This document shows positions 5,985-49,478 of a DNA stretch of 64,000 bases, piece after piece (within the stretch, counting starts at the first letter, position 1; every line of letters begins with the position of its first letter). This stretch comes from Clostridiales bacterium (lineage in GTDB: Bacteria; Bacillota; Clostridia; Peptostreptococcales; Anaerovoracaceae), in assembly GCA_015058275.1 (NCBI GenBank), contig SVCQ01000003.1, positions 1 through 64,000 of the forward strand, written 5' to 3'. The notes under the pieces are model-generated. The model was not told the DNA's origin. It made no database searches and saw only the letters and a list, made by a program, of their open reading frames with translations. Position numbers and translations under genes: made by a program.

Positions 5985-8174
5985 TCAGAAAATAAGGGTC
6001 TTGTCGCCCGAAGCAGCCGTCTCGATCCTGTGAGCCTCACCCTTCCTGTCGATGAGCACGCCGGCCTCCACAGGGTGCTCTGTGACCATGAGCGGAATGC
6101 CCCTCACATCCGATATGCCTGTCTCGTGCGAAGGCATGTACATCTCAGCGCCGAGCTCCTCATATGCGATGCGCGCCTGGCGGTTGAATATATTGAGACC
6201 GTAGTCTCCGTATACCTTTACGCCCGCATCCCGGAATCTCTCTATCCATCCGAGATTCCCGATCAGTATGCCGCTTTCTCTGCAGGCATCCGCTATCGCA
6301 TCGAAATTGTCCCTTATGTATCTGTCGAGCCTGCCCTTGGATACATTGAGTATGTAAGGCAGCGTGCCCGCCTGTCTCTCCACCATGAATATCTCGATCG
6401 GAACAGGCTTCCTCGGATCCTTCCTGACAGCTTCATCTATGCGGGCAAGATCCAGAGCATCCTCCCCGAGAGCCTCCGACGACTTTATCTCTTCTGTCCT
6501 GTCCTTTGTAAGCTTGGGCGACCTGCCGGATATGACAGACTCAAGGCGTCTTTTGAGAAGTATGTCGGCAGCTTCTCTTCTCATCCTGTTGACCACCGAG
6601 AGCGGCATCATGATGCCCTCATCGATCTGTACATCAATGCCGGTAAGCCCCGGAGCATACGGCGTATCTCCCAGTCTGTCGAGATTGCGCTCTATCATCT
6701 CCACGTCGGTGACCGCCTTGCGGGCTGCCTCCACGACATGATCCGCGCTTATCTCCACGCTGCTGTCCGCCCTGACATCCGTCATGATCAGTACAGGATA
6801 CTGGCCTTCTCTTGCAGTGAACTGCATCGTGACCGGGAGCTTTCTCTCGGGCACATCAAGAGCCCTGTCCATGAGCTCTCTGTCTGTGACCTTGAATGCC
6901 AGATCGCCCGTCTCGACACCTCTCTCGAAGTCTCCCACCAGCACGTATCCGTCTCCGGTGTCCTTTATATATGTACAGACATTGCCCACAGGGGAATTGA
7001 CCAGATAATCCCTGTCGCTGCTCCTGAACTCGATGCCGTCGTTCATTCCGATGAAAGTGCCGCGCTCAGCCGCCGATCCGTCTATCTCGATGCAGATGAG
7101 CTCCCTGCCCCTCCTCAGGGCACCGCGCGCCGCGGACTTCTCGTCTTTGGCACTGACCTTGTCCTCGCTGTCTATGACTGCGATGACGCGGCCGAGATAG
7201 AGTCCCTGGTTTTTAGGGCTTGTACCGGAGAGAAGCTCACTGCCCGGGTTGCCGTCAAGATATCCCTCGGTGAAGTCTCCCCTGTTGAATATCTGTCTGA
7301 GCTCGAGCATGTCGCTTTCGTCTACGGAGTACATCTCCGCCGCCTTGTCTCCGTGCTCTCTCAGGAGGCTGTCAAAGAGATCTATGTACTTGCGGTATAT
7401 GCGGGTGACAGTAGCCACATACTCCGGGCTCTTCATGCGGCCTTCGATCTTGAACGAAGAAGCCCCGCTCATCACAAGATCAGGAATGCGGTCTATCAGG
7501 CAGAGGTCCTTAGGGCTGAGGGCATAGTAGGTGCGCCCCTCCCCGTCGGTATATGCATGCCTGCACGGCTGGGCGCAGGTACCGCGGTTGCCTGTCCTGC
7601 CGCTGCCTCCGCCGGTGACCCTGCTCATCTGGCACTGCCCCGAATAGCACATGCAAAGAGCCCCGTGCACGAATATCTCCACTTCGAGAGGATCCTTAAG
7701 TCCCGCACAGTATGACGAGAGTTCTCTTATCTCATCAAGGCTCAGCTCTCTTGCCGGCACAACTCTCCTGAATCCGAGCTTCGACGCTGTCTCTGCAGCC
7801 TCTGTATTGTACAGAGTGCCCTGAGTCGACAGGTGAAGAGGCAGATCCGGGAGGTATTTGCGCAGCAGTCTCACAAGTCCCATGTCCTGAATGATCACTC
7901 CGTCCACACCTATGCCGTAGATATAGTTACAGTACTCGAACGCTCTGGCAAGTTCGCTGTCGCTTACCAGAGTATTGATCGTCATGTACACCTTTACTCC
8001 GTGAGCATGAGCGTAGTTGATCGCATCAGGAAGTTCCTCATCGCTGAAATTGTCTGCAAATATCCTGGCGTTGAATGCCATGCCGCCCATGTATACGGCA
8101 TCAGCTCCGTTATTGACCGCCGCTATGAGATGCGGCTTGCCTCCTACAGGCGATAGTAATTCAGGTTTTTTCAT
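5985..8174 (-). CDS. U32 family peptidase-like protein with DUF3656
   Basis: 729 aa from the MKKPELLSPVG start; GGAGG lies about 13 nt upstream, and the 18 extra residues in the ORF track lack family similarity. The N-terminal barrel starts ELLSPVGGKPHLIAAVNNGADAVYMGG, and the signature EIFVHGALCMCYSGQC with further Cys (GTCAQPCRHAY) marks the U32 family. The middle (about 370-510) looks like the DUF3656 insert. Known U32 relatives (RlhA, TrhP) act in RNA hydroxylation rather than proteolysis, so an rRNA/tRNA modification role is more likely than peptidase activity. Confidence 0.88.
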   Translation of the reverse strand: MKKPELLSPVGGKPHLIAAVNNGADAVYMGGMAFNARIFADNFSDEELPDAINYAHAHGVKVYMTINTLVSDSELARAFEYCNYIYGIGVDGVIIQDMGLVRLLRKYLPDLPLHLSTQGTLYNTEAAETASKLGFRRVVPARELSLDEIRELSSYCAGLKDPLEVEIFVHGALCMCYSGQCQMSRVTGGGSGRTGNRGTCAQPCRHAYTDGEGRTYYALSPKDLCLIDRIPDLVMSGASSFKIEGRMKSPEYVATVTRIYRKYIDLFDSLLREHGDKAAEMYSVDESDMLELRQIFNRGDFTEGYLDGNPGSELLSGTSPKNQGLYLGRVIAVIDSEDKVSAKDEKSAARGALRRGRELICIEIDGSAAERGTFIGMNDGIEFRSSDRDYLVNSPVGNVCTYIKDTGDGYVLVGDFERGVETGDLAFKVTDRELMDRALDVPERKLPVTMQFTAREGQYPVLIMTDVRADSSVEISADHVVEAARKAVTDVEMIERNLDRLGDTPYAPGLTGIDVQIDEGIMMPLSVVNRMRREAADILLKRRLESVISGRSPKLTKDRTEEIKSSEALGEDALDLARIDEAVRKDPRKPVPIEIFMVERQAGTLPYILNVSKGRLDRYIRDNFDAIADACRESGILIGNLGWIERFRDAGVKVYGDYGLNIFNRQARIAYEELGAEMYMPSHETGISDVRGIPLMVTEHPVEAGVLIDRKGEAHRIETAASGDKTLIF

Positions 8175-8207
8175 CTCCGTAGTCCTCCGTATGTACTGAT
8201 TGTAGCA

Positions 8208-8236
8208 CATGTACTTAAGCCAGACCAAATTGTCAA
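8208..8236 (-). promoter_or_regulatory. Probable promoter of the U32 gene
   Basis: A perfect TTGACA (8231-8236) is followed after 17 bp by the weak -10 TACATG on the minus strand. The implied leader is about 25 nt and contains the GGAGG site used by the U32 gene. Confidence 0.5.
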
Positions 8237-8241
8237 CCGTC

Positions 8242-8270
8242 TTGATAAGCAGAATCGCAAGTATTAAACT
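8242..8270 (+). promoter_or_regulatory. Possible promoter of birA
   Basis: TTGATA, 17 bp, TAAACT on the plus strand, about 55 nt upstream of the birA ATG. It sits back to back with the U32 promoter. No biotin-operator palindrome was found here. Confidence 0.45.
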
Positions 8271-8325
8271 AAATATAAGATAGTAGCCACTAACCGGTAT
8301 TTACATCGAGAAAGAAGGCGTATAA

Positions 8326-9309
8326 ATGAGCACTAAGGATACGTTCCTTGAACTGTTTGAACAAAACAGAGGTTTTTTCATATCCGGCGAAAAGATCGCC
8401 AATGATCTTTGCGTCTCCAGGACAGCCGTATGGAAGGCCGTCAAAAAACTTCAAAGAGAGGGCTACGAGATCGAAGCTGTGACCAACAGAGGCTACTGCC
8501 TCGCAAAGAACTCAGACATTCTGTCAGCCCGCGGTATTACAGGCCGTCTGACAGGCGCCGGCAAAGAACTCAGGCCTGAGGTCTTTGTTACAGTCGATTC
8601 GACCAATACCGTATGTCTTGATATGGCTGTCAAAGGCGAGAGCGAGGGATATGTCGCGGTCGCCGGTGCTCAGACCAAAGGCCGCGGACGCAGAGGCAGA
8701 TCCTTCTTCTCCCCTGCCGACACCGGTATCTACATGAGCATCCTTTTAAGACCGTCATCCTACCCGGGCACTCAGGCCCTCAGGATCACAAGCATGGCGG
8801 CAGTGGCAGTCTGCGAGGCCATAGAGTCCCTGACTGACTGCAAGGCTCTCATCAAGTGGGTCAATGATATTTATATAGACGGTCGTAAGGTCTGCGGCAT
8901 CCTGACCGAGGCTCACACGGGTAATGAAGCCGGCACTCTTGACTGCGTAGTGGTAGGCATAGGCATCAACGCATATGCTCCTAAGGGAGGCTTCCCGGAT
9001 GATCTCACAGGCAAGGCAGGCTGCGTATTTGACTCGCAGTCTTCAGACATGCGTAATCGTCTCGCTGCCGAAGTCCTGAGCCGCTTCATGGATTACTACA
9101 GATCGGATTCACAGGCCGGCTACATCGACAAGTACAGAGAGCGCTCTATTGTAGCAGACAAAGACATTGAGATAAGCGGGCACGGCGACACATGCAAAGC
9201 TCACGTGCTGGGTATAGATGATGAATTCGGTCTTATTGTCAGATACCCTGACGGCAGCGAGGAAGTCCTCAGATCAGGCGAGGTCAGCATAAGAGGCATC
9301 GAGGACTAG
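8326..9309 (+). CDS. birA: Bifunctional biotin-protein ligase / biotin repressor
   Basis: 327 aa. The N-terminal winged helix (about 1-65: SGEKIANDLCVSRTAVWKAVKKLQREGYEI) is followed by the ligase domain with the biotinyl-AMP loop GRGRRGRSFFS, KWVNDIY and GIGINAY, and a C-terminal SH3-like domain. It attaches biotin to carrier proteins of biotin-dependent carboxylases or decarboxylases, and having the HTH it can also repress biotin genes. GAAGG precedes the ATG and a terminator follows, so it is a single-gene unit. The target operators are not in this window. Confidence 0.95.
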   Translation: MSTKDTFLELFEQNRGFFISGEKIANDLCVSRTAVWKAVKKLQREGYEIEAVTNRGYCLAKNSDILSARGITGRLTGAGKELRPEVFVTVDSTNTVCLDMAVKGESEGYVAVAGAQTKGRGRRGRSFFSPADTGIYMSILLRPSSYPGTQALRITSMAAVAVCEAIESLTDCKALIKWVNDIYIDGRKVCGILTEAHTGNEAGTLDCVVVGIGINAYAPKGGFPDDLTGKAGCVFDSQSSDMRNRLAAEVLSRFMDYYRSDSQAGYIDKYRERSIVADKDIEISGHGDTCKAHVLGIDDEFGLIVRYPDGSEEVLRSGEVSIRGIED

Positions 9310-9340
9310 CGTGCCTTCACATATCACGGCAAATAAATCA

Positions 9341-9368
9341 GCGGCAAGGCCGTGCCTTGCCGCTTTTG
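9341..9368 (+). terminator. Intrinsic terminator after birA
   Basis: The stem GCGGCAAGG/CCTTGCCGC with a 5-nt loop is followed by TTTTGTG on the plus strand, 31 nt past the birA stop. It lies between convergent genes. Confidence 0.85.
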
Positions 9369-9390
9369 TGTTGCCTAATATATCAGTGCA

Positions 9391-11592
9391 TCACTCCGCC
9401 TGACTGAAGTCCTCGTTATCGAGTCTCTGGCGCTCGACCAGCTCTGCAAAGAAGCCCTTCTTTGCTATGAGCTCATCGTAATTGCCGTCCTCGATTATCC
9501 TGCCTCCGTCGAGCACAAGTATGCGGTCGCAGTGCCTGATCGTCGAAAGCCTGTGAGCTATTACGATACGGGTGCAGCCCATCGCATCAAGAGCTTCGGA
9601 CACCTGTCTCTGCGTCTTGTTGTCGAGAGCAGATGTAGCCTCATCGAACATCAGGAGTTTTGGCTTAGGCGCGATAGCTCTTGCTATCATGATACGCTGT
9701 CTCTGGCCGCCGGAGATTCCTCCCTGGCCCTCGCTTATGATGGTGTGCATGCCCATAGGCATCTCGCGTATGTCATCTGCTATGCCCGCCTTCTCGGCTG
9801 CCTCCCAGGCATCATCGAGTGTCAGTTCAGGATCAGTGATGACGATATTGCTGTATATGTCGCCCTGGAAGAGCCCGCTTGACTGCATTACGGTACCGAT
9901 ATTGCGTCTCAGTGTACCGAGATCCATGCTGTTGATGTCCTTGCCGTCGAAATAGATCGCTCCCTTTTCGGGCTTTTCGAATCCGAGCAGCAGCCTCATG
10001 ATGGTGGACTTGCCGCAGCCTGTCTTGCCTACGATGGCGACATACTCGCCGGGTTTGATCTTGAACGATATGTCTCTGACGATATACGGGGTATCATCGC
10101 TGTAGCGGAATGTCACGTGATCCATCTCGACTCCACCGGATATGGACGTGACAAGCTCCCTGCCCTCTGTTGTCTCAGGCTCTGCATTGAGGAACGGCTC
10201 TGCCATCTCAAGTATAGGCTGTATCTGCGCGGCCGACAGGGCCGTGCCTGCAAGAGTTGTGAACGCTCCCATGACCATGCCGTAGGCAGTCATGAAGGCA
10301 AAGTACGACGACTGATCAATGCCGCTCTCAACCGCGAGATAGTACAGGACTATGTTCGACACGAGAGTTATTGCCGTAGTGATGACCGGGTTGATCTTGA
10401 TGAACAGCGGCGGATTGTATGTGAGCTCCGCCTCCTGTGCATAGAGATTGAGCCATCTTGCGAACATTCTCTTCTCGGCTCCGGCCAGCTTTATCTTTTG
10501 TACGCCGGATATCATGGCGTATGACATTCCGGATTCCTTGGCGGCAACCTGCAGCTGTTTGCGGTTGACGTTGATCTGGATAAGCGTGGTGATCGTCGAG
10601 AATGCCACGGTTACGAGCATGATGACCAGCGACGGTATGACGAGCACTGCGGCAAAGTGGAATATCTGTGTCACGTACAGGAGCGATGACAGAGATGACA
10701 GCGCCGAAGTTATTACCAGACCCATCAGAATGCTGCAGAGCTGACTGACCGACATGGCGCGGCTCTTGAGCTCGCCCGGGCTGTACTGCCTGAAGAAGCT
10801 CGCCGGAAGAGACATCAGTCTCATCATCATGGCCGACTGTACGGCGACCGAGGTCTTGGTATCGAGCCGCTTGGCTACAAGCCCCTGCACGCTTGTCATC
10901 AGCTGTGAGGATATCGTCACGGCGACCATGCATACTGCAATGCCGATAAGGGCTTTTGAACTGCCGCTCATACGGACAGGCCCGGTAAGAGCCTTGGTGG
11001 CACGAGGCATGACAAGCCCTATCACCGTAATGGCAAGGGTCGCTGCGATCAGCATCACGATATCAGTCATTGTAACGCTGTGCCTCATGAAGGCGATCAG
11101 GTCCGTGATCTTGAGCTTTTTCTTAGGAAGAGGCTTGTAGAGTACAAGCGCCTTGTCGCCAAGAGCTGCTTCGTTATTGCGGCCGACCTTTATGATCTTG
11201 TCGGTCTCAGGGTCCTTGTATGTATACCCACTGATGTGGTGAGGGATGAGAGCTACGACAGTCCCGTCCTCAAGGCGTCCCAGCATCGGTCCGAAGGCAT
11301 CCTTGTACCAGCCCGGTGTGAGATCGACGGTCCTGTACATGACGCCGTGCGGACGAAGAGCATAATCGAGCTGATCCATCGGATCCGTGATCGATTCAGG
11401 CACATCCACCGGTTTGTAATGGTAGTATCTCAGCACTTCATCAATTGCGTTTTTGGTGATGATGCGTTCATCACTGAACTTCTGGGCGCTTCTCTCGCCC
11501 AGTATGACTCCGGCTATCTGGAAGAAGGAATCTTCAAGAAGCTCGTTGTCGGCATTACGCCTTTCTTCGATTTGGTTTTCAAACCAGCCCAT
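9391..11592 (-). CDS. NHLM-type peptide export ABC transporter, peptidase-less subunit
   Basis: 733 aa: an N-terminal non-catalytic domain (about 1-165), a six-helix ABC exporter membrane domain (about 170-470) and a nucleotide-binding domain with Walker A GKTGCGKST, signature ISGGQRQRI and Walker B LLMFDEATSALD. The size, the unusual N-terminal domain and pairing with a C39-peptidase ABC 14 nt upstream match the second ABC protein of NHLM (NHLP-leader) bacteriocin/RiPP export systems. It probably forms a heterodimer with the neighbour. The start is ATG with GGAGG upstream. It ends the export operon; no clear terminator is visible. Confidence 0.88.
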   Translation of the reverse strand: MGWFENQIEERRNADNELLEDSFFQIAGVILGERSAQKFSDERIITKNAIDEVLRYYHYKPVDVPESITDPMDQLDYALRPHGVMYRTVDLTPGWYKDAFGPMLGRLEDGTVVALIPHHISGYTYKDPETDKIIKVGRNNEAALGDKALVLYKPLPKKKLKITDLIAFMRHSVTMTDIVMLIAATLAITVIGLVMPRATKALTGPVRMSGSSKALIGIAVCMVAVTISSQLMTSVQGLVAKRLDTKTSVAVQSAMMMRLMSLPASFFRQYSPGELKSRAMSVSQLCSILMGLVITSALSSLSSLLYVTQIFHFAAVLVIPSLVIMLVTVAFSTITTLIQINVNRKQLQVAAKESGMSYAMISGVQKIKLAGAEKRMFARWLNLYAQEAELTYNPPLFIKINPVITTAITLVSNIVLYYLAVESGIDQSSYFAFMTAYGMVMGAFTTLAGTALSAAQIQPILEMAEPFLNAEPETTEGRELVTSISGGVEMDHVTFRYSDDTPYIVRDISFKIKPGEYVAIVGKTGCGKSTIMRLLLGFEKPEKGAIYFDGKDINSMDLGTLRRNIGTVMQSSGLFQGDIYSNIVITDPELTLDDAWEAAEKAGIADDIREMPMGMHTIISEGQGGISGGQRQRIMIARAIAPKPKLLMFDEATSALDNKTQRQVSEALDAMGCTRIVIAHRLSTIRHCDRILVLDGGRIIEDGNYDELIAKKGFFAELVERQRLDNEDFSQAE

Positions 11593-11606
11593 GACTTCCC
11601 TCCTTC

Positions 11607-13808
11607 CTATTCGTTAGAGACAAGGTCTGCATAAGCACCGCCGAGCTTCATCAGCTCTTCGTGCGTACCGCGCTCTGCGACAAGTCCGTGATCGAGCACG
11701 ATGATCTCATCGCAGTCTCTCACGGTGGAGAGTCTGTGAGCGATTACGATGCATGTGATACCTCTGTCCTTGATGGATTTGACTACTTCGTATTCGGTCC
11801 TGGCATCAAGCGCGCTCGTGGCCTCATCGAGTATGATGATGGTCGGGTCCTGTGCCAGCACACGCGCGATCTCAAGACGCTGACGCTGTCCGCCGGACAG
11901 GTCCTGGCCTCCGCTTGTCAGTTTGTGTTTGTAGCCGCCCGGAAGCTGGACTATATCGTCATGGATCTGCGCATCGCGCGCTGCCATTATCATTTCGAAA
12001 TCAAGAATGGTGTCATCCCACATCTTGATGTTGTTGGCTACAGTATCCTCAAAGAGGATGATATCCTGATCCACTACAGCGAGGGATCCGGATACGATGT
12101 CTCTCGGATACGCGCTGCGCGGTTTGCCGTCAAAGAGTATCTCGCCGCTCCACGGCTGATAAAGTCCCGAAACGAGCTTGGATATGGTGGACTTGCCGCA
12201 GCCCGAAGCACCGACAAGAGCCACCCTGTCTCCTGTCTTGAGAGACAGTGAGAAGTCTCTGATGAGAGGTTCCTCAAGGCTTGAGTATCCGAATGTCACA
12301 TTCCTGAGCTCTATATTGCCCTTAAGCTTGGTGAGAGGCATATCCTCAGCAGACTCATCCGAAAGAGCCTCGTCTTCCGGATACTCCATCACGTCCTCTA
12401 CACGCTCCATCTCTGTACGCATCTCCTGTATTGTCTGACCCGCAGTGACCATTGTCATCGCAGGAGCCATGAACGCTGTCAGGAAGCCCTGGAACATTAT
12501 GACTGAACCGAGTGTGAAGTCGCCTCTCATTACCAGCCAGACACCGAGTACGAGTACGGCTGAGCCGGCTATGCTGGTGAAGAACACCGGCAGCATTCCG
12601 AGGTACTGATCGGTACGGGCTGTCTTGACATCCTGGGCATTGACCGATGCCTGATATCCGGCCCATTTGCGGAAGAAGCCGTTCTCGGCTCCGCTGGCCT
12701 TGATGGTCTCGATCATCTCGATGCCTGTAACAGTCGAAGACTCGAGCATTCCGGCATCTCTGAGCTGTACACGTGTTATGTTGATGCGCTTATCGGATAT
12801 GATGCGCGACAGAACTATGTTGATGATAAGAGTGGATAATCCGACAGCTGTGAGCATCGGGCTCTGTTTGATCATGAGCACCAGATAGAACACCATCATG
12901 ATGGTGTTGAGCAGCATCGGTCCGAATGTCTGGACGAGTATGTTCGCAATGGATGCGTTCATCATCTGTCTGGACTGGATATCTCCCGCAAGGCGCTGGG
13001 AGAAGAACTCCATCGGCAGGCGGAGGACCTTCCACATGTATGATGAATTGCCTATGACCGCCATCTTGCCGTTGATCTTGAGCGAGTATATCGCCTGCGC
13101 CCACTCAACTATGAGCTGCATCACGGCAAATGCGACCAGGGCCATTATGAACGGATAAAGCCAGTCAGGATTCCTGCCTGTCAGGAGCCTGTCCATGAAT
13201 ATCCTCGAGTTGACCGAATTGACTATTCCGAAGAGATATGTGATCACCGTGGTGAGCATAACAAAGGCGACCGCTGCTCCGGCGCCTATCAGGCGCTTGC
13301 GGGCAAAGCGGAGTGTGCTCCTGCGCTTGCCGCTTGGCTCGAAATTCTCTCCCGGCACCGGTACTATGACGACACCGGTAAATGACTCGTCAAAGGTCTT
13401 CCAGTCGACCTTTACGGTGCCTCTGGCAGGATCGTTGATGACCGCGGTATCCCCTTTGAATCCGTCCAGCACAACGAAGTGATTCATGTCCCAGTGGATG
13501 ATGCACGGATACTGTCCGTTGTCCCTGAGAGCCTCAGGGCTCATCCTGTAAGCATTGACATCAAAGCCGTAGTTGACGGCCGCAAGATATATATTTTTGG
13601 CTTTGGAGCCGTCACGGGAAACGCCGCAGTCACGGCGCGCCTGTTCGAGCGGCACCCACTTGCTGTAATAAGCCATGACCATGCAAAGAGCAGCCGCGCC
13701 GCACTCAAGTGCTTCGAGCTGCATGACAACAGGGACCTTGGCGACCCCCTTTGTCAGTGTTGGTTTGACTTTTGTCTTAGTAGCCTTATTGTTTGCTGTA
13801 TCTGCCAT
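11607..13808 (-). CDS. NHLM-type peptidase-containing ABC transporter (C39, active)
   Basis: 733 aa. The C39 peptidase domain (about 25-150) keeps its active site: Gln and Cys in MQLEALECGAAAL, His in NHFVVLDGF and Asp in INDPARG. A transmembrane domain and NBD follow (GASGCGKST, DLSGGQRQRL, IIILDEATSALD). Such proteins cut the leader after a double glycine while exporting the peptide. The Nif11-like precursor upstream, whose leader ends in VAGG, is the obvious substrate. It starts seven bases after the adaptor gene. It is the functional counterpart of the degenerate copy near 46 kb. Confidence 0.92.
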   Translation of the reverse strand: MADTANNKATKTKVKPTLTKGVAKVPVVMQLEALECGAAALCMVMAYYSKWVPLEQARRDCGVSRDGSKAKNIYLAAVNYGFDVNAYRMSPEALRDNGQYPCIIHWDMNHFVVLDGFKGDTAVINDPARGTVKVDWKTFDESFTGVVIVPVPGENFEPSGKRRSTLRFARKRLIGAGAAVAFVMLTTVITYLFGIVNSVNSRIFMDRLLTGRNPDWLYPFIMALVAFAVMQLIVEWAQAIYSLKINGKMAVIGNSSYMWKVLRLPMEFFSQRLAGDIQSRQMMNASIANILVQTFGPMLLNTIMMVFYLVLMIKQSPMLTAVGLSTLIINIVLSRIISDKRINITRVQLRDAGMLESSTVTGIEMIETIKASGAENGFFRKWAGYQASVNAQDVKTARTDQYLGMLPVFFTSIAGSAVLVLGVWLVMRGDFTLGSVIMFQGFLTAFMAPAMTMVTAGQTIQEMRTEMERVEDVMEYPEDEALSDESAEDMPLTKLKGNIELRNVTFGYSSLEEPLIRDFSLSLKTGDRVALVGASGCGKSTISKLVSGLYQPWSGEILFDGKPRSAYPRDIVSGSLAVVDQDIILFEDTVANNIKMWDDTILDFEMIMAARDAQIHDDIVQLPGGYKHKLTSGGQDLSGGQRQRLEIARVLAQDPTIIILDEATSALDARTEYEVVKSIKDRGITCIVIAHRLSTVRDCDEIIVLDHGLVAERGTHEELMKLGGAYADLVSNE

Positions 13809-40669: not shown

Positions 40670-43363
40670 TCAGACATTGCGTTGTATTTTTTTGCGTATC
40701 TCGTCCTCTGTAGCCGACAGCATGTCCAGGAATTCCCCGGACGCGATCCTGAGAGAGCCATGGCCCAGTGCATCCTGCTGTACAAGCGCATCGGAAGATA
40801 CCACATATATCTGCCTGTCCTTTATGGCAGATGTCATCTTGCCCATGAGTATGTCCGCAGGTTCGTCCTCTGAAGTGAATATGACGCTGACGCCGTTGAC
40901 CTCCTCTTCGCGCGGCCCGCTGAACGGCACCCTGTATGCGTCAAAGACGACAGAGACTTCGCATCCCCTGTAGCCCGCGAAGTTGCTGAGCCTCTCTGTC
41001 AGCTGATCCCTGGCAGAGCCCATGTCCACATGGGACAGTTCCTTAAGATACTCATCGGCGAATATGAGGTTGTATCCGTCCACCAGTATGAGGACTGGCT
41101 TTTCCTCGCTGCCGGCTGAAGTGCGCGCGTGCCTGGCCCTGATCTCGAGATTGCGTTCGGCAAGCGCCTTCTCCTCCTCTTCGGAGAGGCCTTCCCTGTA
41201 GCGCTTCTCGACTTTATCCTTATATCTGCTTTTCTTTTCGGGTCCGTAGGTCTTCTCAAATATGGCTCTGAGCTCCTTTTCGGCTGCCGCTCGCCTGCGC
41301 GCTTCCTCGCGCACATCGGCAGCTCCGCCGCCCTCTCTTATGGCGGTCCTCGACTGAGCTTCATATACCAATGCGCTGCCGTGAGCGGATCTGCGCTTCA
41401 GTACGCTCGCTATATGCATGTGATCCATCGCCTCGTCCCACTTAACTATGTCGCTGCCGCTGTGGTTCACGAATACCGAGTCCGCAGGATCGTCTGTATC
41501 CCTTTCGGGATCGTACGCCGCAGCTCCGATAACCTCCTCCGCGTTGTGGCATATATCATAGCCGCACGGGATGCAGCTGAGCCTGCCGTATCCGGAGGTA
41601 TATCCCGCGAGCGTCTGCATGTAGTCAGCTATCTCAGATGCCGGCACCCGGCCTTTTATGACGGCCGTGTCTCCTCTTTGCTCCAGTCCGTCCTGGCTGC
41701 CGCCCATCTGCTTTATGTCCGTCATGGCGCGTCCCACAGAGCCCGCAGGAAGTTCGATCTCGTAATTGCACCACGGCTCGAGAAGTACAGCCTTTGAGTC
41801 TCTCCTCGCCTGCATGAGTCCCTGTCTGACGGCCCTGTATGTCGCCTCGCGGAAATCTCCGCCGACCGTATGCTTGTCGTGGGCTCTGCCCGCAGCCAAG
41901 CTGATCCTGACATCCGTGAGAGGAGCTCCCGTCAGGACGCCCCTGTGCTCCTTCTCCTCAAGATGCGTCATGATGAGGCGCTGCCAGTTGATTGCAAGCT
42001 CATCCTCAGGCACCGTGCTGTTTATCACTATGCCGCTTCCGCGCGTGCCCGGTTCCATTATGAGATGGACCTCGGCGTAATGCCTGAGAGGCTCAAAATG
42101 ACCGACTCCCTCATATGTATCCGTGATCGTCTCAAGATATAGCACGCTGCCGGCGCCAAAGCTCACATCATAGCCGAAGCGCTCCTTGATCACCGCCTGC
42201 AGGACCTCGAGCTGCACCCTGCCCATAAGTCTTATCTCTATGTCGCTTCCGTCCCTGCTCCATCCTGCGCTCAGCGCCGGGTCCTCGTCGGTCAGGAGGC
42301 TCAGATCGTCCATGATGCGGTGAGGGTCCATGCCCTCCGGGCCGTATACCGAATAGACCATAAATGGCTTTATCTCCATACCGCCCTGAGGCTCTTCGGA
42401 TCCGAGCGCATCACCCGGCAGGGCTCGTCCGAGCCCCGTCACGGCGCAGACCGTGCCGGCCGTTGCCGAGTCAGTCATCGTGCAGCGGCTGCCGGAGTAC
42501 AGCCTGATCTGATTGACCTTGGCTTCACGCGCTCCGCCGTCCGCAGCGCTCCTGATGACCACCTTGTCCCTCACCCTGAGCTCTCCTCCCGTTATCTTGA
42601 CAAAGCACAGCCTCTCGCCGTCTTCGGCATCGGCCGCCTTGTATACCTTCGCTCCGAATTCATCTCCGTACTCTGGCTCTGCTGAATACCTGCCAATAAC
42701 TTCAAGAAGATCTTCGATCCCTTCTCCCCTGAGAGCAGAGCCGAACATGCACGGCACAATCTCGCCGCGGGATATCGCCCCCGCGATCTCTTCATCGCTT
42801 ATCTCTCCTCTTTCGAGCACCGACTCTGCAAGAGACGGCGAGTACAGCGTTACGCCGTCTATAAAGTCATCACTTCTTGATGCCGCCCCGCTGAAGTCCA
42901 CAGCATCCATGCCGAGTCCGGAGATCATCTCAGAGAGTATATCCTCCCTGCTCCTGACAGCGATATCCATTTTATTGATGAACACAAAAACAGGGATGCC
43001 TCGTGATCTCAGCATCCTGTATAAGGTCTTTGTATGCGCCTGCACGCCCTCAGAGCCGCTCACCACGAGCAGCGCCTCGTCTATGACCGACAGAGATCTC
43101 TCCATCTCCGCGGCGAAGTCGGTATGGCCCGGAGTGTCTATCATGGTCACTTCGGTGCCACCTGCCATAAAGCGCGCCTGTCGTGAAAATATAGTGATCC
43201 CGCGATTGCGCTCGATTATATTGTCATCGAGGAACGAATCTCCGTGATCGACTCTGCCGGGCTTTCTGATCTCTCCCGAGGCGTAGAGTATGGCCTCGGA
43301 CAGAGTGGTCTTGCCGGCGTCCACATGCGCGAGTATTCCTATTGTGATCTTTTTATTATCCAC
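40670..43363 (-). CDS. TetM/EF-G-like GTPase fused to a YacP/NYN nuclease-like domain
   Basis: 897 aa. Residues 1 to ~650 are a ribosomal-protection-type translational GTPase: G1 AHVDAGKTT, G3 DTPGHTDF, G4 NKMD, then EF-G domains II-V. After a charged helical linker (~660-735), residues ~735-890 look like a NYN/YacP domain: LILVDGYNLIFADEY, SVVFDAYRVPF and IYVVSSDALVQQDALG keep the acidic residues. YacP (Rae1) in Bacillus cleaves mRNA in the ribosomal A site, so the fusion may couple factor binding to mRNA cleavage; that is inference. The start is GTG with no clear SD, 29 nt after the exporter gene. It should not be read as proof of tetracycline resistance. Confidence 0.87.
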   Translation of the reverse strand: MDNKKITIGILAHVDAGKTTLSEAILYASGEIRKPGRVDHGDSFLDDNIIERNRGITIFSRQARFMAGGTEVTMIDTPGHTDFAAEMERSLSVIDEALLVVSGSEGVQAHTKTLYRMLRSRGIPVFVFINKMDIAVRSREDILSEMISGLGMDAVDFSGAASRSDDFIDGVTLYSPSLAESVLERGEISDEEIAGAISRGEIVPCMFGSALRGEGIEDLLEVIGRYSAEPEYGDEFGAKVYKAADAEDGERLCFVKITGGELRVRDKVVIRSAADGGAREAKVNQIRLYSGSRCTMTDSATAGTVCAVTGLGRALPGDALGSEEPQGGMEIKPFMVYSVYGPEGMDPHRIMDDLSLLTDEDPALSAGWSRDGSDIEIRLMGRVQLEVLQAVIKERFGYDVSFGAGSVLYLETITDTYEGVGHFEPLRHYAEVHLIMEPGTRGSGIVINSTVPEDELAINWQRLIMTHLEEKEHRGVLTGAPLTDVRISLAAGRAHDKHTVGGDFREATYRAVRQGLMQARRDSKAVLLEPWCNYEIELPAGSVGRAMTDIKQMGGSQDGLEQRGDTAVIKGRVPASEIADYMQTLAGYTSGYGRLSCIPCGYDICHNAEEVIGAAAYDPERDTDDPADSVFVNHSGSDIVKWDEAMDHMHIASVLKRRSAHGSALVYEAQSRTAIREGGGAADVREEARRRAAAEKELRAIFEKTYGPEKKSRYKDKVEKRYREGLSEEEEKALAERNLEIRARHARTSAGSEEKPVLILVDGYNLIFADEYLKELSHVDMGSARDQLTERLSNFAGYRGCEVSVVFDAYRVPFSGPREEEVNGVSVIFTSEDEPADILMGKMTSAIKDRQIYVVSSDALVQQDALGHGSLRIASGEFLDMLSATEDEIRKKIQRNV

Positions 43364-43392: not shown

Positions 43393-45552
43393 TCAGCCCT
43401 CCTGCCTCCTCATCAGCTCGTAGAACTCACCCTTGAGATCCATGAGCTCGTCAAAATTGCCCGACTCTGCTATCCTGCCGTCCTTGAGCAGCACTATCCT
43501 GTCGCAGCCCTTTACGGTGGAGAGCCTGTGAGCGACCATGATGACGGTGCACTTCTCCGCGTATACGGATTTGAGGACCTTGCTCTGGGATATATTGTCA
43601 AGCGCCGATGTCGCCTCGTCGAGTATCATGATCGACGGCTTTGATGCAAAGGCCCTTGCCAGCAGCAGTCTCTGCCTCTGTCCTCCTGAGAAGCCTCCGG
43701 AGTTGGAGTCGGATATCTCGGTATCGTAGCCGAGCGGAAGAGCGTTGATCGTATCCGCTATGTCGGCCTTTTGGGCAGCCTCCTCAGCCTCCTCCCGGCT
43801 TACCGGATGCGGACAGAAGGCTATATTGGACAGGATCGTCCCCGGCATGACCTTGCTGAACTGGAAGACCGTGCCTATATGCCTCCTGTAGGCGCGCAGG
43901 TGTATTGAATCGATAGGCTTGCCGTCTATGAATATGCCTCCGCTGGAAGGCCTTATTATACCCAGTATGAGCTTTAGGAGAGTGCTCTTGCCGCAGCCGC
44001 TCTCTCCCACTATGGCGATCTTTTCGCCCGGGCTTATATGAAGCGATACATCATCCAGAGTACCAAAGCTGCTGTCCTCATATGTGAAGCTGACATTCTC
44101 GATGCGGATGTCTCCTCTGACCTTGCGCAGTATCGTACGTGTCTCATCGTCCTCTGCCGCTGCGTCGAGTATGCCCTTGAGCTGCGCCATCATAGGCTTC
44201 ATGAGCAGTAGCTTGCGCTGGGCGTCCATAAGATCCGTAACGGCCGAAGTGATCAGCGCGAAGGCCGAGGTAAATGCTATGTAGTCGGACTTGGCTATGC
44301 CTCCCGGCACTATGAGCGAGAGCAGTATGACCGTACCCAGAGATGAGAGGAATCCTATCGCCACATCTTCGAGCTTGAGCACTGCAGGCTGATCCAGGTC
44401 ACATGCCAGGACAGACTGGTACTTACTCGTCCATTTAGCGTATATCCTCTTTTCGGCTCCGCTCTCCTTGATGCGCTGGATGCCCTTGAGAGCCGTATAC
44501 ATGAAGGCCCTCTGATCCATCTCGGCCTCCTGGCGCTTCCTTTCGTTAGTCGCAAAGAACCTGCCGGCGACGAGAGTGTAGGCGCTCTTGATCACGAGCA
44601 CCACTATCGCAGGCAGCAGCATCAGCCTGGAGAACGACGCCATCTGAGGTATGTAGACCAGCGAGAACACCGCCGTGAGCGATGCTCCCAGGAAGAAGTT
44701 TATCATCTGTTCGGTGAGGAACCTCGCGTTGGCGATCTGTTTTGAGAGCTTGCCGGTAGAGGAATTCATAAAGTAGTTCTGCGGCAGCAACAGCACCTTG
44801 GCCATCACGGCAGACTGAGCCTCAGAGGATATCCTGACCCTCATCTTGCCTAGGAATATAGTTCGTCCGGCAGTTATGGCCGCCTTTACGATCCCGGCCG
44901 CAAGGAAGAGACCGAGGCTCTTCATAAGTATGCTGTATCCGCTCATCCCCATCGGGACGATCTCCTCGAGCACGACCTGGTTCATCTTAGGCGCTACCAT
45001 GCCGAGCAGCGAGGTCAGCATAGCAGCCGCGGCTATCGCCACTACATCTCTCATGGAGACAAGTCTCAGGACATATACGGCCATAGTCACCATATTGGCA
45101 TTTTCTAATCTGATCGGTCTGTATATCGCATAAGCCTGAGGCTGCAGCTTGATGCTCGAGGACACCCTGCCCGCGGCCCCGTCAGCCGGGCATGTGTATC
45201 TGTATCCGCTTACGGCAGGACTCAGCAGGACAGCCTCGCCGTCATCTCTGAATCCGAGTAAATACTGTGTCCTCTTGAGCCAGTCGGGATCCGTCAGATC
45301 TACGGCATCGTAGATCACGCCGAGCGGATCGAGCATCAGATCGAGCATCTCGACTATATCGCTGCATCCGCTTACTTCATGCGTCTCAAGTCCGAACTTC
45401 GAGAGTATCTGAGCCACGACAAACTGAGCTCCGCCTGAGCTGATCGCCGGATCATCCTTGCCCATGCGGTGCATCATCCGATAATCGGCTTTTCTGACAA
45501 GCTCGTTATCCTTTCGCTCTCTTTCTCTTATGACTTCGGTGTAAAGGCCCAT
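43393..45552 (-). CDS. NHLM-type ABC exporter subunit, second locus
   Basis: 719 aa. An N-terminal non-catalytic domain (~1-155) is followed by an exporter membrane domain and NBD: Walker A GESGCGKST, signature FSGGQRQRL, Walker B IMILDEATSALD, H-loop VAHRLS. It has the same layout as the 9.4-11.6 kb gene, though clearly diverged. It begins three bases after the degenerate-peptidase ABC gene, so the pair should form a heterodimer. No precursor, adaptor or modification enzyme lies beside it. Confidence 0.85.
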   Translation of the reverse strand: MGLYTEVIRERERKDNELVRKADYRMMHRMGKDDPAISSGGAQFVVAQILSKFGLETHEVSGCSDIVEMLDLMLDPLGVIYDAVDLTDPDWLKRTQYLLGFRDDGEAVLLSPAVSGYRYTCPADGAAGRVSSSIKLQPQAYAIYRPIRLENANMVTMAVYVLRLVSMRDVVAIAAAAMLTSLLGMVAPKMNQVVLEEIVPMGMSGYSILMKSLGLFLAAGIVKAAITAGRTIFLGKMRVRISSEAQSAVMAKVLLLPQNYFMNSSTGKLSKQIANARFLTEQMINFFLGASLTAVFSLVYIPQMASFSRLMLLPAIVVLVIKSAYTLVAGRFFATNERKRQEAEMDQRAFMYTALKGIQRIKESGAEKRIYAKWTSKYQSVLACDLDQPAVLKLEDVAIGFLSSLGTVILLSLIVPGGIAKSDYIAFTSAFALITSAVTDLMDAQRKLLLMKPMMAQLKGILDAAAEDDETRTILRKVRGDIRIENVSFTYEDSSFGTLDDVSLHISPGEKIAIVGESGCGKSTLLKLILGIIRPSSGGIFIDGKPIDSIHLRAYRRHIGTVFQFSKVMPGTILSNIAFCPHPVSREEAEEAAQKADIADTINALPLGYDTEISDSNSGGFSGGQRQRLLLARAFASKPSIMILDEATSALDNISQSKVLKSVYAEKCTVIMVAHRLSTVKGCDRIVLLKDGRIAESGNFDELMDLKGEFYELMRRQEG

Positions 45553-45555
45553 GCT

Positions 45556-47739
45556 CTATGCCTCTTCCGGTACCTGGAGAAGCTGCCTGTAGAGGCCTTC
45601 GCTTCTCATGAGTTCCTCGTGCGTTCCGCGCTGTACTATCCTGCCCTTGTCCATCACGAGTATGTGATCGCACGAAGCGACAGTCGACAGTCTGTGAGCG
45701 ACGACCACGCAGGTGGTGCCTTTATCTCTTATGGATTTGAACACCTCGGCCTCGGTGATCGCATCGAGCGCCGAAGTGAATTCATCAAGCAGCAGTATAT
45801 TAGGCTCGGCCGAGAGCGCCCTCGCAAGCTCCATCCTCTGGAGCTCGCCGCCCGAGAAATTGCGCCCGTTTTCGAGCATATGGGCATAATATCCCTCACG
45901 CTCGCGGATTATCCTGGAGTGTATATGCGCGTCTCTGGCCGCGAGTATCATCTCGTACTCCTCTATCGTCGGATCCCACATCGTCAGATTGTCGGCGATG
46001 CTGTCCTCAAATACCACACATTCCTGATCGACCGCAGTTATCGAGGAGTGGAAGACCACATCAGGGATCTCATCCCTTGTGAGGCCTCCGTATCTGATCT
46101 CTCCGCTCTCAGGTGTGTAGAGCGAGAGCAGACACTTAAGGAGAGTGCTCTTGCCGCAGCCGGAGGATCCCACTACGGCGATCAGATCGCCCGGTTCTGC
46201 CTTAAACGAGATATCCTCTATCGACAGAGGCTCGCCCTCCTGATATCTGTATGAGACGTGAGATACATCGAGAGTACCCGGCAGCTTGTCCGGCTCGTCC
46301 GAGTCCGCCAGAGCGCGCACAGGCATTATATCTCTCTGTCTTATATCCTCTATCCTCTCAATATCTGTACGTGTCTTTTGGAGGTTGTTGATCATGTTGA
46401 TGCAGTTTGAGAACGCGCTCCTGAAGTTGCCGAGCAGAGACTGAAGGGCCGCCATTAAGCCAAAGGTGAAGTTGCCCTGTATCATAAAGTAGGCTCCCAC
46501 AAAGAGCAGGACTGCCTGAGACAGCAGCGAGTGCATACTGTCAAGCACTCCCGTTATGGCGGTTATGTTATTACCGCTGATGCGGCTCTCGTCGAATTCC
46601 ATCTGAGTGCTGTTCCAATCAGAGAAGAACATCCTCTCTGCCCCGCCGGCCTTTATGGTCTCTATGGTATCCAGTCCGTTGAGCAGGGATGTATTCATAT
46701 TGCCTGTGCTGACAGCATTGGCCCTGGCCTGCATGCTTATGATGCCCTTGAGGCGCAGCGAAACGACGAGGTATACCACCTCTACGGAGACGCACGCGAG
46801 CGCTACCTGCCACTGGTAGCTGATCATCAGCATCAGATAGATAAACGTCATCACGAAATCGAGGAGCCTCGGCACTATCGTCCTGACAAGCGAGAAATCA
46901 AGCTTGGCGTTGTCCTCCATGCGCTGTATCAGCTCGCCGGAGCGGTACTGCTCAAAGAACTGCATAGGCTGTGCCAGTATACGGCTAAAGAGCCCCGAGC
47001 CCGAGGATGCGGCGACCTTGTATGAGGTCCTGAATATGAGAAGTGTCTTTAAGATGTTTACTATGGTAGCCAGCACGAGTATGACCGCCATGGAAATCAC
47101 GAGGATGCTGTAGACATCGATATCTACGTCGTAATGGCTCGACAGGAGCCTTGCCAGGGCATCGTCATTTGAATTCTTCGGGTCGGCCGTATCCAGCATG
47201 AGCCTTGTGGCTCTGACCATGAGCAGATTGAGGCCTACCGCCATCATGTTGAGGGCCGCAAGCCACAGAAGCGATCTCCACGTGCCCTTCATCCTGTATC
47301 TGATAAGGTCATACAGAGATTGGCGCTTGCCGCCCTTCACAAAGCCCTCACCCGGCCTCATGATAAGTATCTCGCCGGAGTACTTGGACAGGAATCCGTC
47401 GAGCGTCATCTCATACTCGCCCTTGGCCGGATCTGCCAGATAAACCACCCCGCGTTTGATCTTTTTGACGATGCAGTAGTAACGCTTCTTCCAGTGTATG
47501 ACCGCAGGGAGCTCGACCTCGGTGATACGGGATGCGTCCGCGCGGATGATCTCGGTATCAAGGCCGTAGCGCGCGGCCATGTCCTTTACCTGCTCCGGAG
47601 TGGAGCCGCCGCGCGAGCTTATATTGGATGCACGAAGCTCTGACAGAGTCTTGATGCAGCCATAATAAGAGAGCATCGTGGCGATCACCGCGATGGCATT
47701 CTCTCCCGGATGTGTCTGTACTACTACAGGCATCTTCAT
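45556..47739 (-). CDS. NHLM-type ABC exporter with degenerate C39 domain
   Basis: 727 aa from ATG at 47739 (AAGGAG 11 nt upstream; the track's GTG overlaps that site). The N-terminal ~130 residues align with the C39 peptidase of the active copy, but the catalytic Cys position is Asn (VVVQTHPGENAIAV against VVMQLEALECGAAA) and the His position is Tyr (WKKRYYCIV against WDMNHFVVL); the Asp (ADPAKG) remains. Thus it probably binds but does not cut its cargo, as in HlyB-type C39-like domains. The NBD is intact (GSSGCGKST, FSGGELQRM, ILLLDEFTSALD). The structured RNA and RT gene lie immediately upstream. Confidence 0.87.
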   Translation of the reverse strand: MKMPVVVQTHPGENAIAVIATMLSYYGCIKTLSELRASNISSRGGSTPEQVKDMAARYGLDTEIIRADASRITEVELPAVIHWKKRYYCIVKKIKRGVVYLADPAKGEYEMTLDGFLSKYSGEILIMRPGEGFVKGGKRQSLYDLIRYRMKGTWRSLLWLAALNMMAVGLNLLMVRATRLMLDTADPKNSNDDALARLLSSHYDVDIDVYSILVISMAVILVLATIVNILKTLLIFRTSYKVAASSGSGLFSRILAQPMQFFEQYRSGELIQRMEDNAKLDFSLVRTIVPRLLDFVMTFIYLMLMISYQWQVALACVSVEVVYLVVSLRLKGIISMQARANAVSTGNMNTSLLNGLDTIETIKAGGAERMFFSDWNSTQMEFDESRISGNNITAITGVLDSMHSLLSQAVLLFVGAYFMIQGNFTFGLMAALQSLLGNFRSAFSNCINMINNLQKTRTDIERIEDIRQRDIMPVRALADSDEPDKLPGTLDVSHVSYRYQEGEPLSIEDISFKAEPGDLIAVVGSSGCGKSTLLKCLLSLYTPESGEIRYGGLTRDEIPDVVFHSSITAVDQECVVFEDSIADNLTMWDPTIEEYEMILAARDAHIHSRIIREREGYYAHMLENGRNFSGGELQRMELARALSAEPNILLLDEFTSALDAITEAEVFKSIRDKGTTCVVVAHRLSTVASCDHILVMDKGRIVQRGTHEELMRSEGLYRQLLQVPEEA

Positions 47740-47769
47740 CTCTGTCGGCACTCCTTTACTATTCTAAAG

Positions 47770-47901
47770 AAAACGGACGGGGATGCATTCAGCAAATTGC
47801 GTATCAAAAGCACTCCATATAGCAGCCGCCTGCATAGCCCTTTTTAGCTATATATCATGCTTTCATGCAGGCGCGCCCACAGGGACGCACCCGTCCGTTT
47901 T
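47770..47901 (-). ncRNA. Structured RNA candidate between RT and exporter genes
   Basis: A perfect 12-bp inverted pair (AAAACGGACGGG and CCCGTCCGTTTT on the minus strand), extended by TGCGT/ATGCA after a 2-nt bulge, closes a 132-nt element. Inside are GCCTGC/GCAGGC enclosing CATG-AAAG-CATG and ATAGC/GCTAT hairpins, plus GCG-CCC/GGG-CGC near the 5' side. A T-rich run (TTTTCTTT) follows, so it may also terminate the RT transcript. It starts 29 nt past the RT stop. It may be an RT-associated RNA or an exporter leader. A 23-codon ORF (MQAAAIWSAF...) lies in its 3' half. Confidence 0.6.
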
Positions 47902-47929
47902 CCTTAGCTCAGCACGCGCAGTAAATTAT

Positions 47930-49159
47930 TTATTCTTCTCTTCTTTCGAATCCGTGGTAGTAAGCGTGGACCAGCGTACGGTATCCCCTGCGCTGCATCT
48001 CCTTATACCTTACTCTGTATTTTGCGTTTGTCTTCTTACCGCTGCCCGCTATGCGTATGCAGTCCTGGGCGCAGCTGTCCAGGCGCCTCAGGCTGTCAGG
48101 CCTTGTCAGCACCCCGAACGCCCAGTCGACCCAGTTGAGTTCGTTCTCATCTCTACGCATACCAAAGAAGTAGCGGTCTATGCGGTCGATCATCCGCTGC
48201 ATCGACTCCTCTCTGCTGATCCCGTATTTGGCCTGCCATCTGAGCAGCTTGTCTGCAAAGTGTCTGAACTTCCACTCGACCTTGCGCATCGAGGTCTCGG
48301 CTATGTCGAATTCTCCGTTCTCAAGCTGGAAGCCCAGGAGCTCGAACCTCTCTCCCGGAGATGTGATCGCGGTCTTGTCTTCGTTGAATTCAAGGCCCCT
48401 CTCTTTAAATTTACGCCCCAGTATCCTGTAAGCCTCGCGGGCCTGCTCCTCGGTCTCGGTAAACACCGCTATGTCATCCGCGAACCTGCAGTAATACGAA
48501 GCGTGCTCCCTTATTATATCATCAACATCGAGCAGGTATACGTTCTCAAAGAAGTTCGTCAGGGCGCATCCGCTGAGGGCCCCCGTATTACCATGTACGA
48601 GCTCCCCCTTTTCATAATACTCGCCCCTAGTAAGGAGGCGGTCAAAGAACCATAGCAGATCAGGATCCTTGTCCTTATATATATCAGTGAGCTGCTCCAT
48701 CAGGATATCCGCATCAACGTTATCGCCAAAGCTGTGTATATCCGTCTTGAGCACCCAGTGCGTCCTGTTGTAGCCTTGCTTCCTTATGTGTCTGAATATC
48801 CCCGCTATTGGCCTGCCGATCCTGAACGAATAAAGAGAATCGGAGAAGAGATAATCATGATCATGCATGACAAATGCCATGAGCTTGATTATCATGCTCT
48901 CCTCAGGCCTGAAGCGGTATACGGCGCGGCGCTTATCGGAATTCTTTTTGCGCAGAAGCACTCTCCGAGGTGCTTCAAAGTAGAAGTCTCTTTGTCTGAG
49001 CCTCTCGATATCGCGCTCGCAATCATCGCTGAGGATGTACCTTTCGAGCTCCCCGATCTCGGAATCCTTTGTGTTGTATGATGATCTCTTCCTCTCGAGG
49101 AAGGCCTCGCGGGTCTCCCTTTCGATCATCTTATCCAGAACCCTTATATACTCGTCCAA
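47930..49159 (-). CDS. Stand-alone reverse transcriptase
   Basis: 409 aa if started at the TTG preceded by GGAGAG; the track's earlier TTG overlaps yhbY, and an ATG at 49129 is also possible. RT motifs: basic RRVLLRKKNSDKRRAVYRF, WVLKTDIHSFGD (first catalytic Asp), GNTGALSGCALTNFFENVYL in the motif-4 position, YYCRFADDIAVF (FADD catalytic pair), LEFNEDKTAI and LLGFQL. The C-terminal ~120 residues (TNAKYRVRYKEMQRRGYRTLVHAYY) are not an HNH endonuclease and not an obvious maturase domain. It is not a group II intron protein by context. The role is unknown; a structured RNA and exporters follow. Confidence 0.88.
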   Translation of the reverse strand: MDEYIRVLDKMIERETREAFLERKRSSYNTKDSEIGELERYILSDDCERDIERLRQRDFYFEAPRRVLLRKKNSDKRRAVYRFRPEESMIIKLMAFVMHDHDYLFSDSLYSFRIGRPIAGIFRHIRKQGYNRTHWVLKTDIHSFGDNVDADILMEQLTDIYKDKDPDLLWFFDRLLTRGEYYEKGELVHGNTGALSGCALTNFFENVYLLDVDDIIREHASYYCRFADDIAVFTETEEQAREAYRILGRKFKERGLEFNEDKTAITSPGERFELLGFQLENGEFDIAETSMRKVEWKFRHFADKLLRWQAKYGISREESMQRMIDRIDRYFFGMRRDENELNWVDWAFGVLTRPDSLRRLDSCAQDCIRIAGSGKKTNAKYRVRYKEMQRRGYRTLVHAYYHGFERREE

Positions 49160-49184
49160 ATCAGTTTGCTCTCCGCATGTTACG

Positions 49185-49478
49185 TTATAGAACAATACGT
49201 CTCTTATCGGGATCAGATGACTGTCTGTAAAGCACGAACTTGCGCCCTATTGCCTGCACGAAATCCGCGCCCAGCTCGGATGCTATCTCGTTTGCCGTCT
49301 CCTTCGGATCAAGCACCGCTCCGTCCTGTATCTGTACCTTTACAAGCTCGTGTGCCTCGAGGTAATCATCTATAGCCTTTATGACCGTAGGAGTTACCTC
49401 CTCTTTGCCTATCATAACACATGGCTTTATGCCCTGCGCCATTTTCTTAAGCTCGCTGCGTTCTCTTCCTGTGATCAT
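49185..49478 (-). CDS. yhbY: YhbY family RNA-binding protein (CRM domain)
   Basis: 97 aa. The CRM fold is visible as MITGRERSELKKMAQGIKPCVMIGK, then VIKAIDDYLEAHELVKVQI, ending QAIGRKFVLYRQS. YhbY proteins bind pre-50S ribosomal particles. It is followed closely by the RT gene; whether they share a transcript is unclear. Confidence 0.93.
   Translation of the reverse strand: MITGRERSELKKMAQGIKPCVMIGKEEVTPTVIKAIDDYLEAHELVKVQIQDGAVLDPKETANEIASELGADFVQAIGRKFVLYRQSSDPDKRRIVL

Follow-up and report, generated by a model that had tools for sequence, protein, structure and literature searches.

The window, by which is meant the whole 64-kb stretch of DNA that was analysed, encodes a reverse transcriptase (RT) and two ABC proteins, ABC1 and ABC2, all on the minus strand (Table 1). 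The 178-nt gap between the RT and ABC1 holds a pair of inverted arms. As placed in the original prediction, the element closed by these arms is situated 3' of the RT, flanked by the RT stop (47930) on one side and by the exporter start (47751) on the other; it shares the strand of the RT. Perfect arms of 12 bp had been described there; they are in fact 13 bp long (47769-47781 with 47890-47902) and reach 18 bp with one non-Watson-Crick position, a G·U (47764-47781 with 47890-47907). The multi-hairpin character ascribed to the element was also borne out, in that helices P1, P2, P4, P5 and P6 were modelled, to which a further pairing, P3, is added here.

The 132-nt fold beat 200 of 200 dinucleotide shuffles on each strand, with z-scores of -4.5 (plus) and -3.4 (minus). 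The arms alone are unremarkable, since about 0.5 perfect inverted repeats of at least 12 bp at such spacing are expected by chance per shuffled 64 kb, and it is comparative evidence that decides. An Rfam scan of the 64-kb window at gathering thresholds returned zero matches. Stops are present in all three RT-strand frames of the four RNA copies checked, and the opposite strand has open frames in some copies; a DRT2-like endless ORF within the RNA is unsupported and would seem unlikely.

Table 1. Features of the RT-exporter locus and of the RNA element, with positions in the window.
Feature	Position	Strand	Basis
ABC2, NHLP-type exporter permease/ATPase partner	43393..45552	-	NHLP model match
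ABC1, NHLP-type exporter, C39 domain degenerate (Asn for the catalytic Cys, no His)	45556..47751	-	linked to UG26-type RTs elsewhere
ncRNA gene, probable cognate RNA of the UG26 RT	47764..47907, core 47772-47899	-	model R1 match, covariation
P1 closing helix, 3' arm	47764..47781	-	inverted arms and covariation
P6 mini-hairpin (GCA/UGC), then conserved unpaired UGAAUG before P1 3' arm	47786..47800	-	UUNAANG-like segment conserved in alignment A9
P4 two-part stem (AAAGCA/UGCUUU and AUAUAGC/GCUAUAU), encloses P5	47807..47863	-	covariation
P5 apical hairpin GGCU[AUGCAGGC]GGCU	47824..47839	-	motif GGCUNNGCAGRC.GCC common to both RNA types
P3 3' segment (P5 loop)	47828-47835	-	complementary to 47865..47872
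P3 5' segment GCCUGCAU, complementary to P5 apical loop	47865..47872	-	98% paired, two-sided changes at 4/6 pairs
P2 hairpin (GCGUCC/GGGCGC)	47873..47888	-	two-sided changes at 2/6 pairs, window-type set
P1 closing helix, 5' arm	47890..47907	-	11/12 modelled P1 pairs vary on both sides, 26 RNAs
Reverse transcriptase, UG26-type, YCRFADD motif intact	47930..49195	-	PADLOC RT_UG26, E 1.3e-102

The reverse transcriptase and the exporter pair

The RT matched the PADLOC RT_UG26 profile at 341 bits over residues 18-415 of 421, the next-best UG profile reaching 98 bits; a full-length match that is by far the best places the protein in the UG26 family. The UG17/DRT10 profile was among the best of the non-UG26 PADLOC matches. 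Four records, RUG13917, Lachnospiraceae JC7, Oribacterium C9 and Mogibacterium RGIG5722, contain close relatives of the RT (57-63% identity), and in a tree drawn against group II RTs these and the window RT formed a clade with 100/100 support, on a long separate branch beside canonical UG26. The clade is rare. Samples of genomes at order level (395), class level (391) and phylum level (399), searched at E 1e-70, added only canonical UG26. Scans of viral_contigs with the RT and with alignment A1 gave no relative, and searches of phage and plasmid proteins gave only distant RTs, of less than 30% identity among the matches listed. The predicted fold of the RT (mean pLDDT 69) is nearest to those of group II, G2L4, DRT9, DGR and DRT2 RTs. 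A group II intron was considered and rejected on the basis of the group_II_RT_mat score (110 bits against a cut-off of 300) and the empty Rfam scan of the window. The start codon of the RT is overlapped by yhbY, which encodes a CRM RNA-binding domain (49185-49478, minus strand); other genes occupy this place in other loci.

The two ABC proteins resemble the NHLP/NHLM bacteriocin exporters in that TIGR03796/TIGR03797 are their best-matching models, but differ from them in scoring under the curated cut-offs (575 against 853 and 494 against 709), in the loss of the C39 Cys and His, and in that no obvious precursor-peptide gene was found in the compact cassette. In all six RT-linked ABC1 proteins that were checked, the catalytic Cys of the C39 domain is replaced by Asn and the His is lost, ECG being changed to EN(A/S/G) and NHF replaced; two paralogues without an RT keep both residues. 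Among 47 genomes of the genus, a UG26-type RT is adjacent to the close ABC1 homologue (about 44% identity or more) in five of five cases (G000, G282, G1253, G1262 and G1250). The exporters of G1262 are 65-69% identical to those of the window and its RT only 33%, and the exporter linkage therefore spans diverged RTs. The link need not be functional, as insertion sites in common or hitch-hiking within an operon could also account for it.

A second NHLP-type exporter pair, retaining the C39 catalytic Cys and His, is encoded at 9391-13808 on the minus strand of the window. Directly downstream of the exporters (40670-43363, minus strand) lies a gene for an EF-G/Tet-like GTPase of the ribosomal-protection type, with an NYN_YacP domain fused to its C-terminus. 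At locus L033, ABC1 is represented by two overlapping ORFs (7726-10006, plus strand) in a metagenome-assembled genome (MAG), the result of either a frameshift or an assembly error.

Homologous RNAs at other UG26 loci

Searching with the window gap in nhmmer revealed homologous elements 3' of every RT of the clade, on the RT strand. The RT is followed by a single copy in both L034 and L035, by a tandem pair in L036 (the G1253 contig) and by three copies in tandem in L033 (the G282:C23 contig); as L034 and L035 are near-identical, the window-type set represents four independent lineages only, and most of the genomes compared are MAGs. Visual inspection of L033 showed a truncated further copy of the 5' half of the RNA shortly ahead of the exporter start (7801-7870, plus strand). 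When the upstream flanks of canonical UG26 loci were aligned, a conserved structured RNA of ~130 nt was found immediately 5' of the RT. Often just upstream of the canonical RNA is a conserved gene for a protein of ~190 amino acids (for example L045, 8301-8882, plus strand), which begins MGLFDKL, has a C-terminal LRYYYDHHGWWNTR-like motif and gave no Pfam match above cut-off. This protein is likely to be a partner of canonical UG26.

Covariance model R1 was built from ten canonical upstream RNAs, without any sequence of the window clade. Applied to the 64-kb window, it gave exactly one match at E values up to 10, on the minus strand at 47772-47899, covering model positions 1-129 of 129, i.e. 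the full length. The score of this match (36.9 bits, E 3.5e-7) is far under that of most canonical members (62-140 bits); the match nonetheless identifies the element as a UG26-associated ncRNA. R1 also recovered every RNA copy in L033, L034, L035 and L036; in canonical UG26 it located the RNA on the 5' side of the RT at 21 loci, among them loci in genomes from other families of the class. The reciprocal model R2, made from window-type RNAs, recovered canonical RNAs in the right places (L050, E 1.1e-7; L054, E 0.0011; several weaker), the E-values of both models being rough because the calibration was short. Across 298 genomes of the family, R1 found the RNA in 17, with one copy each, and all 17 also carry a strong UG26 RT match; these 17 are canonical members, since the stricter filters of the scan missed weak window-type ones.

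The search for further genomic copies that had been proposed with the original prediction returned a single copy in the element's own genome. Conservation with the RT, on which that prediction hinged, extends to UG26 RTs across several families of the class, and the position 3' of the RT, which had been regarded as atypical, was confirmed and appears to be a clade-specific relocation from the canonical 5' position. The 5' position would be ancestral in UG26, a polarity taken from its wide occurrence in canonical loci and not from a rooted reconstruction. Comparison of the loci establishes three traits of the window clade: an RNA located 3' rather than 5' of the RT, its presence in one to three tandem copies, and linkage to two exporters.

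Arm-closed RNAs were additionally assigned by hand beside more diverged RTs, where they lie on other strands. In G1262, two such RNAs (AAGGAAGG/CCTTCCTT) are situated 3' of two UG26-type RTs, in L083 (~6388-6505) and L097 (~6550-6670). They show the canonical topology only when read on the strand opposite to that of the RT, with P3 altered to GUUUCAGA/UCUGAAAC; all eight of the eight loop bases are complementary to the upstream segment, a result matched by 0/200 and 1/200 shuffles. In G1250, an RNA closed by AGAGGAGGG/CCCTCCTCT and containing GGCUUCGGAACAGCC is flanked by the exporter pair on one side and by a divergent UG26-type RT on the other (L084, 7188-7305, plus strand), with weaker loop complementarity (16/200 shuffles).

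RNA structure and covariation

All members share the P1 closing arms, a GC-rich P2 hairpin, a two-part P4, a P5 with a loop of ~8 nt and a P6, the last being short in window-type RNAs. The P5 loop is complementary to the single-stranded segment between P2 and P4, and this complementarity constitutes P3. The covariation analysis envisaged in the original prediction was carried out on alignment A9, comprising 26 RNAs aligned to the structure of R1. In A9, 94.3% of cells pair and two-sided changes occur at 37 of 44 pairs, as against a mean of 24.8 pairs in shuffles (0/500 reaching 37) and 13-20 with slid structures; since the alignment follows R1, the counts for R1 helices lean towards that model. 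The count for P3 is independent of this fit, because P3 is absent from R1: 98% of its pairs are kept, and four of six show two-sided changes (C-G to U-A, U-A to G-C, G-C to A-U). Separate counts on MAFFT alignments agree, with two-sided changes at 19/44 pairs in the canonical set and 17/43 in the window-type set. In MAFFT alignments mixing the two RNA types (A4 and A5), the P1 arms of one subgroup were placed wrongly; the groups were split and the covariance model used.

Homologous elements 3' of related RTs, together with this covariation, put the element beyond chance. Its functional strand is the minus strand, as judged from homology and pseudoknot topology. The comparison across loci thus demonstrates that the RNA exists, fixes its strand and architecture, and ties it to UG26 RTs. 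The P5 loop and P3 segment can pair, as a pseudoknot or as a switch; both readings are retained because the full P4 and P3 together look sterically strained.

No clear case of an A-B-A' repeat-template motif conserved across the UG26 RNA family was seen. The best, if speculative, candidate for a template is the conserved unpaired UUNAANG-like stretch that separates P6 from P1. A TTGA-N11-TTGA direct repeat flanks P6 in five of eight copies; it is not claimed as a template, since it is imperfect in the window and in L034/L035. A strict motif descriptor recovered many of the RNAs and flagged L084, and was dropped as evidence after yielding scattered matches elsewhere; it missed the window RNA because of two G·U pairs in P5.

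Function of the RNA and comparison with known systems

The locus joins a UG-type RT to a cis-encoded, covarying structured RNA, the combination by which Class 2 UG systems (DRT2/3/9/10) are recognised, and the evidence suggests that RNA and enzyme make up an uncharacterised system with a membrane pump coupled to it. The element is probably a separate ncRNA gene of ~130 nt whose product is the cognate scaffold/template RNA of the UG26 RT, in a DRT10-like set of RNA, RT and membrane partner. The transcript would fold into the closing helix P1, P2, the two-part P4 capped by P5, and P6, with the P5 loop pairing to the P3 segment. The RT would bind this RNA as a scaffold and may use a limited stretch of it as template for cDNA, as is the case for DRT9, DRT10 and DRT3a (PMC12632851, PMC13174585). 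The exporter pair would then be the membrane partner, gated or fed by the activity of the RT, much as has been proposed for SLATT in DRT10. Physiologically, the system may serve phage defence or secretion. An RNA serving the RT as template or primer had been among the original suggestions; partnership with the RT is strongly supported, since the RNA and this type of RT are conserved together in several families of the class, the copying step itself being proposed by analogy.

The RNA might instead belong to the exporters, as a leader, attenuator or terminator-like element of their mRNA that regulates ABC1/ABC2 and is merely beside the RT. In the window, L033 and L036 it does lie directly upstream of ABC1 on the same strand, and a short T-run follows the P1 3' arm in some members. 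In L034/L035, however, the RNA keeps its place behind the RT although the exporters are encoded on the other strand, upstream of the RT, from which it is concluded that the RNA is not a leader of exporter mRNA. The homologous RNAs 5' of the RT in the 21 canonical loci have no adjacent exporter pair, and L033 has three full tandem copies; the terminator-leader hybrid originally entertained thus fails and a leader role is highly improbable. Retron-like behaviour, where the RT would copy part of the RNA from a 2'-OH branch to give msDNA and P1 would represent a1/a2, is scarcely more probable. The long terminal inverted arms and the compact structured RNA beside an RT recall retrons, and to that extent the a1/a2 resemblance noted at the outset stands by analogy; the RT, however, is of the UG26 family and scores only 41.9 bits with the retron St85 model against a cut-off of 235, the RNA is 3' and not 5' of the RT, and neither an msd hairpin nor a branch motif was identified in it, nor any match in Rfam. 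Least credible is a MITE-like mobile or repeat element with terminal inverted repeats. Its terminal arms and the tandem copies in L033 and L036 are what such an element would offer, but its own genome has one copy, among the 298 family genomes it occurs only in UG26-RT carriers at one copy each, none being found in genomes lacking a UG26 RT, and its internal pairs covary, so that selection acts on RNA structure. The small mobile repeat suggested earlier can be set aside on these grounds.

A purely structural role deserves more consideration, though it too is improbable. The RNA would be neither template nor primer, and the RT would make untemplated or protein-primed DNA or repair DNA in the manner of G2L4. 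The lack of a clear A-B-A' motif is consistent with such a cofactor, as are the G2L4 and group II RTs that rank among the nearest folds besides DRT9 and DRT2. On the other side, in those Class 2 DRTs with a cis-encoded RNA that have been studied to date, the RNA serves as the template (PMC12632851, PMC13174585), and UG17/DRT10 is one of the RT's best non-UG26 profiles. Rather unlikely, finally, is an RT-RNA system coupled to secretion, in which the UG26-type RT would copy its partner RNA and the product, either protein-primed cDNA or a peptide read from cDNA, would be exported by, or would control, the NHLP-type pair devoid of its peptidase residues. Were this true, a bacterial transporter would be fed or gated by reverse transcription.

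The preferred reading, a cognate RNA of the UG26 RT, relates the locus to several known systems. DRT10 consists of a UG17 RT, a 137-nt ncRNA and a SLATT membrane protein (PMC12632851). It shares with the window a UG-type RT, a cis-encoded RNA of ~130 nt, a long closing stem with smaller stem-loops and a linked membrane protein; here, in contrast, the RT is UG26 and the membrane component an ABC exporter pair, and the RNA, which follows the RT and may occur in tandem, showed no identifiable template repeat. DRT3, made up of UG3 and UG8 RTs and a downstream ncRNA (PMC13174585), is similar in having its RNA downstream of the RT operon and differs in that the window has one RT only, has exporters and is without the conserved ACACAC template. 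Canonical UG26 loci have the same RT family and a homologous RNA with the same helices and pseudoknot, but their RNA is 5' of the RT, often after the MGLFDKL-type gene, no exporter pair is adjacent, and the window clade stands apart on its long branch. In retrons, too, a structured RNA next to an RT is closed by inverted arms; they differ in RT family, in RNA position and in msr/msd features, which are absent here.

No description of a UG26 RNA was found in Rfam 15 or in the literature searched, and UG26 as the name of an RT family apparently occurs in that literature only in a virome survey. UG26 is among the prokaryotic RT families for which, to our knowledge, no mechanism has been worked out. 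A covarying partner RNA with a testable pseudoknot opens the family to direct study of RNA binding and cDNA synthesis. In the exporter-linked clade the RNA is relocated and present in more copies and the C39 domain of the exporters is degenerate, which suggests that RT-RNA systems may have a new type of membrane partner besides SLATT. A UG26-like RT also occurs in fused form in G282, where a protein of 1112 amino acids (L056, 3142-6480, plus strand) carries it at the C-terminus, joined to a region that matches PADLOC ZacB and, weakly, PLDc.
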